Shown here piece after piece: positions 21,878 to 23,701 of a stretch of 64,000 nucleotides of DNA. A program made the position numbers and the translations under genes. The stretch's first letter is position 1. Each line of letters opens with the position of its first letter. The DNA lies in the IMG/VR virus record IMGVR_UViG_3300023179_000058, positions 25,766 through 89,765 of that record; one strand, given 5' to 3'. The stretch is from a virus. Below the pieces are notes generated by a model, which made no database searches, had not been told where the DNA came from, and saw only the letters and a program-made list of their open reading frames with translations.

Positions 21878-22145
21878 AAAACAAAAAGAGATTATGAGCA
21901 TTGCACAGGAAGAATGTGCAGAAGTTGTTCAAGCAATTAGTAAAATTTTTAGATTCGGATTAGATGAATCATTCGAAGGTAAGACTAATCGCGAAAGATT
22001 GACAAGTGAACTAGGTGATCTTCAATGCATGATTACACTACTTAAACAGTATGAAGTAGTTGATGATTTTAAAGTACATCAAGCCGAACTTGCAAAAAGA
22101 ACTCGCCTTAGCAAATGGTCTAACATCTTTACTGAGGTACAGTAA
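21855..22145 (+). CDS. MazG-like NTP pyrophosphohydrolase
   Basis: A 96-residue all-alpha MazG-type protein: AQEECAEVVQAISKI (ExxE metal ligands, residues 17-31) and TSELGDLQCMI (ExxD, near residue 52). These hydrolyse NTPs or (p)ppGpp-related nucleotides to monophosphates. Start chosen at ATG 21855, where similarity begins. Its stop overlaps the next ATG. Confidence 0.85.
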   Translation: MNNYYLDEKQKEIMSIAQEECAEVVQAISKIFRFGLDESFEGKTNRERLTSELGDLQCMITLLKQYEVVDDFKVHQAELAKRTRLSKWSNIFTEVQ

Positions 22146-22951
22146 TGATCGTTCTCTACGGGCATGGCTATGTTGCAGATTACATAGCCAAAGAAATGCA
22201 TAAGCAATCATTTAAGTTTGTTCGCTTAACGCATCATGCATTAGTACCTAAAGATGCAAAGTTTATTGTCAATGCCGCAGGCTTTACGGGCAACCCTAAT
22301 GTAGATGCTTGTGAGGTTTTGCGTGATGAGTGCGTAGACGGAAACATTCGATGGCCACTTAAACTTGAAAGAATCGCAAGCCAAATTTCTGATATTCCAA
22401 TTCTACACATTACTAGTGGTTGTGTGTATACTGGCTATGATAAAGAATGGACAGAAAATGATCCGCCAAACTTTACATTCAACAATGCTTCTTTCTATAG
22501 CGCATGTAAAGCATTGGCACAAGAACTACTATCGCCATATATGAACAAGTCATATTTGTTCCGAATTCGTATGCCATTTGGTCCGCACATTCACCACAAG
22601 AATCTATTGACAAAATATGAAAGATATGCTAAACTTGTAGACTATGAGAACAGCGTAACACAGGTTGAAGATTTAGCAAAATGTGTTTGTCATTTCATCA
22701 TGATAAAACCAACATATGGAATTTATAATGTTTGTAATCCTGGCAGTACTAGCACGAAAGAAATTGTTGCAGAAATGGGGCTCCATAAAGAATGGATGAC
22801 TCATGATGATTTTGCTAAGGCAGTAGTTGCGCCGAGAAGTAATTGTGTGCTAAATACTAAGAAGTTGGAAAGTGTGTATGCTATGCGGTATGCTGACCAA
22901 GCGGTAAGCGAAACAGTACGCACATACTTATCACACAATCTTTACTTATGA
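22145..22951 (+). CDS. RmlD-like NAD(P)-dependent sugar reductase
   Basis: A 268-residue SDR protein: GHGYVADYI near residue 6 (nucleotide-binding loop), NAAGFTGNPNVD, ITSGCVYTGYD, then YSACK (active-site Tyr and Lys). It resembles dTDP-4-dehydrorhamnose reductase. It probably acts with the RmlB and RfbH homologues about 4-8 kb downstream in making a modified deoxysugar. Its stop codon overlaps the start of the tmRNA acceptor piece. Confidence 0.75.
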   Translation: MIVLYGHGYVADYIAKEMHKQSFKFVRLTHHALVPKDAKFIVNAAGFTGNPNVDACEVLRDECVDGNIRWPLKLERIASQISDIPILHITSGCVYTGYDKEWTENDPPNFTFNNASFYSACKALAQELLSPYMNKSYLFRIRMPFGPHIHHKNLLTKYERYAKLVDYENSVTQVEDLAKCVCHFIMIKPTYGIYNVCNPGSTSTKEIVAEMGLHKEWMTHDDFAKAVVAPRSNCVLNTKKLESVYAMRYADQAVSETVRTYLSHNLYL

Positions 22952-23011
22952 CTGTATGAAGCAAAGAGAAAAGTGTTCTGGACGCGGGTTCGACTCCCGC
23001 CTGGTCCACCA
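22948..23011 (+). ncRNA. ssrA: tmRNA, 3' acceptor piece of a permuted gene
   Basis: T-arm GCGGG-TTCGACT-CCCGC (22984-23000), acceptor strand CTGGTCC (23001-23007), A, and encoded CCA (23009-23011). This acceptor strand pairs with GGGCCAG at 23417-23423, giving a 7-bp stem with the G3-U70 wobble that marks alanine acceptors. GACTGT near 22950 can pair with ACAGTC in the coding piece. No matching 5' half lies upstream, so the gene is permuted: the CCA end comes before the 5' end. The exact 5' boundary of this piece is not visible. Confidence 0.85.
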
Positions 23012-23028
23012 TAAGGAGATTTGTAAAC

Positions 23029-23415
23029 ATGGCATATTCCGATAAAGTAGTTGACCACTATGAAAACCCAAGAAATGTTGGATCGTTTGACAAGAACGAT
23101 ACTGATGTTGGTACTGGCATGGTTGGTGCTCCTGCTTGCGGAGATGTTATGAAACTACAGATAAAGGTTAATCATAAGACAGGTATTATTGAGGACGCCC
23201 GTTTTAAGACATACGGATGCGGGTCGGCAATCGCATCAAGTTCTCTTGTCACAGAATGGGTCAAGGGCAAGACTCTTGACGAGGCGGCAGGTATTAAAAA
23301 TTCTGAGATTGCAGAAGAACTCGCCCTCCCTCCAGTCAAAATACACTGTTCAATACTTGCTGAAGATGCGATTAAGTCAGCAGTAGAAGATTACCGAAAG
23401 AAAATCTCTTTATGA
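23029..23415 (+). CDS. iscU: IscU iron-sulfur cluster scaffold, inside the tmRNA gene
   Basis: A full-length 128-residue IscU. It has the three ligand Cys (C37, C64, C107), D39, H106, and the LPPVK motif (100-104) recognised by the HscA chaperone. IscU assembles [2Fe-2S] clusters from IscS-supplied sulfur and passes them to apoproteins. The AAGGAG site (23013-23018) begins 2 nt after the tmRNA CCA end, and the stop codon (23413-23415) ends 1 nt before the tmRNA coding piece. The gene therefore fills the intervening segment of the permuted tmRNA. No iscS, hscA or fdx is nearby, so host partners are needed. Confidence 0.93.
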   Translation: MAYSDKVVDHYENPRNVGSFDKNDTDVGTGMVGAPACGDVMKLQIKVNHKTGIIEDARFKTYGCGSAIASSSLVTEWVKGKTLDEAAGIKNSEIAEELALPPVKIHCSILAEDAIKSAVEDYRKKISL

Positions 23416-23416
23416 T

Positions 23417-23636
23417 GGGCCAGTCATGGTTTCGACAGGGCAAAGAGTAACAGAGTAGACAGTCCGGTAGATGACGACCGTAAATCGCATAAATAAAGTA
23501 AACGCAAACGATGAAAAGTTCGCATTGGCAGCCTAAACGCTGACTAGGGTTTCGGTGAGTTTCCTCGTAACAGAATAACTCACCACTAATTTTGGATAGT
23601 TGTAGTCGGCGGCAAAACCCGTTAGGCAGACCTAAC
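23417..23636 (+). ncRNA. ssrA: tmRNA, 5' coding piece of a permuted gene
   Basis: Begins GGGCCAG, then a canonical GGTTTCGACA segment. The tag frame at 23504-23536 encodes ANDEKFALAA and stops at TAA. Upstream is a possible pseudoknot 1 region (CGGT/ACCG near 23465-23482). Downstream, helices CGCTGACTA/TAGTCGGCG (23538-23546/23603-23611), GGGTTT/AAACCC (23547-23552/23615-23620), GGTGAGTT/AACTCACC (23554-23561/23577-23584) and GTTAGG/CCTAAC (23621-23636) fold the rest. No CCA-bearing tRNA half follows, which confirms permutation. tmRNA with SmpB frees stalled ribosomes and tags nascent proteins. Confidence 0.92.
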
Positions 23637-23701
23637 TTTGGATTGCTTTATGATAACGAACCGAAATGATTTTTAATTTTTTAACCTCTAAGGGGAATTT
23701 T

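Follow-up and report, generated by a model that had tools for sequence, protein, structure and literature searches.

The 64,000-nucleotide stretch of viral DNA analysed here (the window) carries a circularly permuted tmRNA gene whose intervening segment (IVS) is taken up by a complete iscU gene, and it belongs to a broad class of viral loci in which small protein genes are nested at the same position. The explanation we favour, with a confidence a little above even, is that the IVS of viral permuted tmRNAs is a cargo port, carrying one small exchangeable gene (sometimes two) on a single precursor with the tmRNA, and governed by a stem whose closure would act as a switch. Comparison of the sequences establishes the architecture of these loci, its conservation, the selection acting on the nested frames and their exchange, and from these features we infer the switch between translation and maturation.

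The iscU-bearing tmRNA locus

Within the window, positions 22950–23536 of the forward strand form a single match to the covariance model of permuted tmRNAs (RF04321, tmRNA_permuted; cmscan, 127.5 bits against a gathering score of 47, E 1.4e-24), and an independent call by ARAGORN likewise returned a permuted tmRNA, with the tag ANDEKFALAA. The acceptor-side half, or 3' piece (22950–23011, forward strand; placed by the start of the RF04321 match, ARAGORN and direct reading), lies upstream of the 5' piece and contains a helix strand, the T arm, the acceptor 3' strand CUGGUCC (23001–23007), A73 and the CCA end (23009–23011). The 5' piece (23417–23627, forward strand) begins with the acceptor 5' strand GGGCCAG (23417–23423), which on direct reading pairs with its counterpart at all seven positions, G3-U70 included, and continues with an mRNA-like region and then helices, its 3' end differing by tool (23536 for RF04321, 23627 for ARAGORN). 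The tag frame with its TAA occupies 23504–23536 (forward strand; ARAGORN coding part 588–620, direct reading). A permuted tmRNA with this 7-bp acceptor stem and tag had been proposed in a first-pass annotation made from the sequence alone, and the covariance model, ARAGORN and direct reading together bear it out down to the coordinates. A spaced pattern describing both halves has one match in the window and none in any of 100 shuffles, and an RF04321 search of the whole 89,765-base virus record, of which the window is a part, returned only parts of this same tmRNA and no second tmRNA half; a normal half elsewhere had been named beforehand as grounds for doubting the permuted reading. No group I intron was found, the T loop being uninterrupted and no intron family being matched within the window, where cmscan also gave no rRNA match; a promoter scan gave no signal above chance. 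Upstream, an ORF of 268 aa resembling by eye a sugar-nucleotide reductase (22145–22951, forward strand; ORF list, direct reading) ends with a stop (22949–22951) whose last two bases are also the first two of the tmRNA match, and the tmRNA is thus tightly packed, with coding frames on both sides. The virus record encodes PhoH, and its large structural genes look T4-like. Elsewhere in the window (250–2883), five tRNA genes (two Leu, two Ser, one Gly) lie around a 478-aa ORF.

The IVS itself (23012–23416, forward strand; 405 nt), bounded by the CCA and the paired 5' acceptor strand, is predicted to be absent from the mature tmRNA. It holds a complete iscU frame of 128 aa (23029–23415, forward strand; ORF list, PHROG 8429) that starts with ATG, ends in RKKISL, fills 96% of the segment and closes with a TGA (23413–23415) one base before the tmRNA 5' end at 23417, just as the first-pass annotation had described it. 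Its product scores 186.1 bits against Pfam NifU_N (PF01592; cut-off 22), and its translation contains C37, D39, C64, H106 and C107 together with LPPVK at residues 100–104, which we take to be the cluster-binding residues and motif of IscU. The gene is single-copy in the 89,765-base record, in which (the record may be a fragment) no second iscU, SmpB or IscA-type gene was found.

As an ordinary gene, iscU is present in at least 600 stretches of other viral contigs, and 7 of 43 other iscU contigs carry a permuted tmRNA scoring over the cut-off; the readable IVSs of other iscU contigs (L020, L369, L372, L375) hold no iscU. At L020 (3001–4060), iscU and a frame that by eye is IscA-like immediately precede a permuted tmRNA whose IVS, of 108 nt, lacks a nested gene, an adjoining arrangement that could possibly represent a step towards the capture of iscU by the IVS. 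A search of viral contigs for nested iscU elsewhere, with gaps of 392–422 nt, led to products of 124 aa (L233/L235) and 122 aa (L234), none of them iscU, and the next gap range gave no match in viral contigs.

Nested genes in viral permuted tmRNAs

A small gene behind a Shine-Dalgarno (SD) sequence at the start of the IVS was found in 66 of 118 clean, distinct permuted tmRNAs (the window and 117 other viral-contig loci), a proportion that is not a frequency, since the later searches were selective. The first sample was drawn from viral contigs by a pattern of T arm and acceptor end, unselected for IVS content; its IVSs measured mostly 50–220 nt, and 22 of its 57 clean loci held a nested frame under a strict rule that missed two further likely cases (L120 and L189), the nested share in this unselected sample being about 40%. 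Searches for long IVSs, for SD-type leaders and for the 3' end raised the set to its full size. The nesting, for which the first-pass annotation knew of no equally exact parallel, is thus not singular, many different cargoes occupying the same position.

Nested frames fill a median of 87% of the IVS, and in nested IVSs of at least 150 nt 29 open frames were counted against 0.36 expected when the interior was dinucleotide-shuffled and the start kept. Every cluster with comparable sequences gave a pN/pS of 0.08–0.31, a substitution pattern that shows the nested cargoes to be under purifying, protein-level selection. The stop is a UGA at -1 in 42 of the 66 nested loci and lies at -12 or -13 in 14, while eight nested frames continue past the IVS into the tmRNA 5' piece.

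These cargoes represent about 39 protein families, among them IscU (in the window), thioredoxin (L256/L314; PF00085, 75 bits), a PGDYG-domain protein (L243) and the 122-aa protein of L234, which is GNAT-like by eye only and found no match in a tblastn search against isolated phages. Strongly hydrophobic, membrane-like peptides of 23–24 aa ending in VLL occur in 14 variants (L105, L119, L151, L158, L163, L177, L191, L241, L244, L280, L304, L305, L316 and L322), with a pN/pS of 0.30. A conserved zinc-ribbon-like frame (MKYTALCPxCF...KHKCF) in a 101-nt IVS (L087, L135, L147, L153, L279, L286, L309 and L328) has no stop in the IVS and continues into the tmRNA 5' piece, where its end is not conserved. 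Two overlapping frames, for a 34-aa membrane-like peptide and then a protein of about 110 aa that is GNAT-like by eye, share the 474-nt IVS of L369 (290–763; contig IMGVR_UViG_3300042691_017939), which is longer than that of the window, and the IVSs of L301 and L283 likewise hold two frames.

Cargoes are evidently exchanged between tmRNAs. Among 53 nested pairs with 92% or more identity in the mature tmRNA parts, pairs that overlap in their members and are not independent, 46 carry unrelated cargo and 7 the same; L147 and L182, with tmRNA parts 99.4% identical, have different nested frames. With near-identical tmRNAs carrying different cargoes the IVS behaves as a cargo port, and homologous recombination within the conserved arms of the tmRNA is the probable means by which its content is replaced. 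A separate arrangement at L370 (140–1020; contig of L166), where a frame resembling by eye a GIY-YIG homing endonuclease interrupts a tmRNA 5' piece after which a second permuted tmRNA copy follows, suggests active gene movement at the tmRNA site.

As to distribution, a pattern of T arm, CCA and NAAGGA gave at least 120 matches in viral contigs. One exact longer pattern uncovered no nested case in 84,980 prokaryote species genomes; its sole match there, on one contig, looks like a normal one-piece tmRNA with a hairpin behind it. An IVS leader of the TAAGGA type was found in none of the isolated permuted-tmRNA phages XacN1, SM1, PA_L9, Rb1, X1, QDWS359, BUCT628 and QDWS595, so that all nested cases seen come from uncultivated viruses, some of them on contigs 270–364 kb long.

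The IVS stem and the proposed switch

A point absent from the first-pass annotation is that the SD and the last codons of iscU form an 11-bp stem continuing the acceptor stem. Its 5' strand (UAAGGAGAUUU; 23012–23022, forward strand) holds the SD AAGGAG (23013–23018) and makes 11 pairs with the 3' strand (AAAUCUCUUUA; 23402–23412, forward strand), which was assigned by pairing and covariation, consists of the last iscU codons and is the source of the ISL end. The UGAU that follows (23413–23416, forward strand), the iscU stop plus one base, faces A73-C-C-A with an A-U pair, a C.A mismatch, a C-G pair and an A-U pair, and the composite helix of acceptor stem, ACCA/UGAU bridge and IVS stem comprises 8 + 13 bp with that one mismatch, at a predicted -30.1 kcal/mol. 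A conserved, covarying stem of 10–11 bp is formed in almost all IVSs, base i (i = 1–11) being paired with base -(i+4). Stem cells are paired in 93.8% of instances in nested and 90.6% in non-nested loci, against 81.1% and 61.5% when 3' ends were swapped between loci (observed value reached in 0 of 1000 swaps) and 41–62% in slid registers; the loci are related, which makes the swap tests and p-values optimistic, whereas the slid control keeps that relatedness. Non-nested loci have many different stem sequences, and in nested loci the 5' strand contains the SD, the 3' strand being the end of the ORF or the few bases that follow it. The predicted stems are weaker in nested (-7.5 kcal/mol) than in non-nested loci (-10.4 kcal/mol), as expected if ribosomes must open them, though SD and codon composition could give the same result.

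The stem also bears on the ends of the nested proteins. UGAU, opposite ACCA, ends the IVS in 65 of the 66 loci with a nested gene and in 39 of the 52 without, and since it is found in gene-free IVSs as well, the exact placing of the iscU stop is largely given and was probably not made for iscU. Where the UGA stands at -1 the stem also supplies the final codons, so that cargoes with no relation to one another have C-termini in common, the 42 loci of this type including VSL (12), VLL (14, mostly one family), KSL (3) and ISL (2, one being the window). The other viral iscU proteins examined commonly end in NRHSQ, RKKH and similar sequences, and the one among them that ends in SL does so with a different stop and codon context; the ISL end of the window protein, resembling that of unrelated cargoes, thus indicates that a tmRNA frame was already in place when iscU was fitted into it. 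It also speaks against a misassembly, or a chance iscU fragment caught between two tmRNA halves, as the origin of the locus. Such an artefact might be suspected because the nested iscU is known from one metagenomic record among those searched, but we find it scarcely credible: the gene is complete and fitted at both ends, and the fit of its SD and last codons into the stem, together with selection across the class, led us to reject chance and misassembly alike.

Thermodynamic prediction, which models the RNA by itself, free of ribosomes and ongoing transcription, puts the openness of the window's SD at 0.00 for the precursor and at 0.01 for the excised IVS; the means of the nested class are 0.09 and 0.10, rising to 0.39 with the 3' strand of the precursor shuffled. 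The start region of iscU is also predicted to pair with other iscU sequence, so that the stem need not be the sole block to translation. A simpler view would take the IVS as free space in a crowded genome, offering a compact passenger a ready-made promoter, SD-like leader and stop; a paired SD would be tolerated because ribosomes and RNA folding exchange fast, and neither process would regulate the other. The unrelated functions of the cargoes, the presence of UGAU and stem also where there is no cargo, and the large share of the IVS that the frames occupy in the window and in the class all agree with such a passenger, and the SD may be in the stem only by forced overlap, as the stem must start the IVS and the leader is short. 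Even so, we consider this reading rather doubtful, since across about 39 families the SD stays inside the stem, even though lengthening the leader slightly would release it.

The first-pass annotation had offered another model, in which ribosomes terminating at the iscU stop would cover the tmRNA 5' strand and delay its maturation, translation thereby repressing the tmRNA. This model would predict the position of the stop, a single base ahead of the tmRNA in the window and at -1 in most nested loci, but not the 14 loci with stops at -12 or -13 or the existence of UGAU without cargo, and with the SD closed few ribosomes would reach a finished precursor. It is unlikely as an account of its own, while being compatible with the cargo port as one half of it. 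A less probable proposal still, to which we would assign only a slight chance, is that the excised IVS is the working mRNA, trimmed to a nonstop message whose product would be tagged by the tmRNA of the same transcript in a self-limiting manner. Processing as predicted would leave the excised segment of the window with 17 nt ahead of the start codon and a single base beyond the stop; nevertheless, the SD is predicted to stay paired in the excised RNA, and the frames that continue into the 5' piece could not be completed from it. These eight frames suit translation of the unprocessed precursor better.

The switching cargo port that we favour would operate in that precursor. A single transcript would serve cargo and tmRNA, a capacity that the first-pass annotation had already suggested and that the architecture of the locus supports. 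As long as the IVS end has not emerged, ribosomes would find the SD accessible and make the cargo from nascent RNA. Synthesis of the 3' strand and of the 5' acceptor strand would then allow a helix of about 21 bp to close, which would hide the SD and permit release of the two-piece tmRNA by RNase P and 3' processing. A transcript would thus give a brief pulse of protein followed by a single tmRNA, and as the SD would be free only until the IVS end is transcribed, cargo would come from nascent transcripts. For iscU, the predicted folding makes mutual exclusion of its translation and tmRNA folding, through an SD inside the stem and a stop opposite the CCA, more plausible than before. The full generalisation, in which the maturation helix supplies SD and stop to every cargo, translation and maturation exclude one another and the tmRNA arms let phages swap cargo, is put forward more tentatively, at somewhat less than even confidence.

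Significance and relation to known systems

If this explanation is true, a familiar non-coding RNA gene also serves to carry fast-changing phage proteins, many of them tiny and easily overlooked in annotation, and uncharacterised phage cargo should be sought between the CCA and the tmRNA 5' end. It would also provide a possible reason for phages to keep permuted tmRNAs, and a specific example, open to testing, of a transcript that can become either mRNA or structural RNA.

Two-piece permuted tmRNAs are known, also from aquatic phages such as Melnitz (PMC9004378, PMC11915505). In the available text of the second, a tmRNA database paper of 2025, the IVSs of published permuted tmRNAs are non-coding, with one tRNA and one repeat as special cases, homing-endonuclease genes are described from tmRNA group I introns, no mention is made of an IVS that contains a protein gene, and the term 'open reading frame' does not occur (PMC11915505). 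No report of protein genes nested in the IVS was found in the open-access literature. New here are such genes and the broad class behind them, permuted tmRNAs themselves being known. With those described by RF04321 the window shares the 3'-IVS-5' order of pieces, the G3-U70 pairing of the acceptor, the tag and the covariance model, and it differs in an IVS that is protein-coding cargo with SD and stop. Like the group I introns with their homing-endonuclease genes, it has a protein gene in a stretch removed from a tmRNA precursor; here, however, the gene lies in the permutation IVS, with no intron or splicing, and the cargoes are varied and are not homing endonucleases.

Some 23S rRNA IVSs encode a protein. 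The structure of 23S rRNA IVSs and their removal by RNase III have been described (PMC2743711). These IVSs resemble the present case in that complementary ends form a stem, the fragmented RNA is held together by pairing and an ORF may be present. They differ in the RNA and the enzymes concerned, and in that here the SD and last codons form the stem, with many cargoes. A sequestered SD is also a feature of mRNAs with riboswitch-like or temperature-responsive leaders. In these, as predicted for the nested genes, RNA pairing controls access to the SD, whereas in the permuted tmRNAs the SD pairs with the final stretch of its own ORF, a strand that also belongs to the maturation helix of another RNA.
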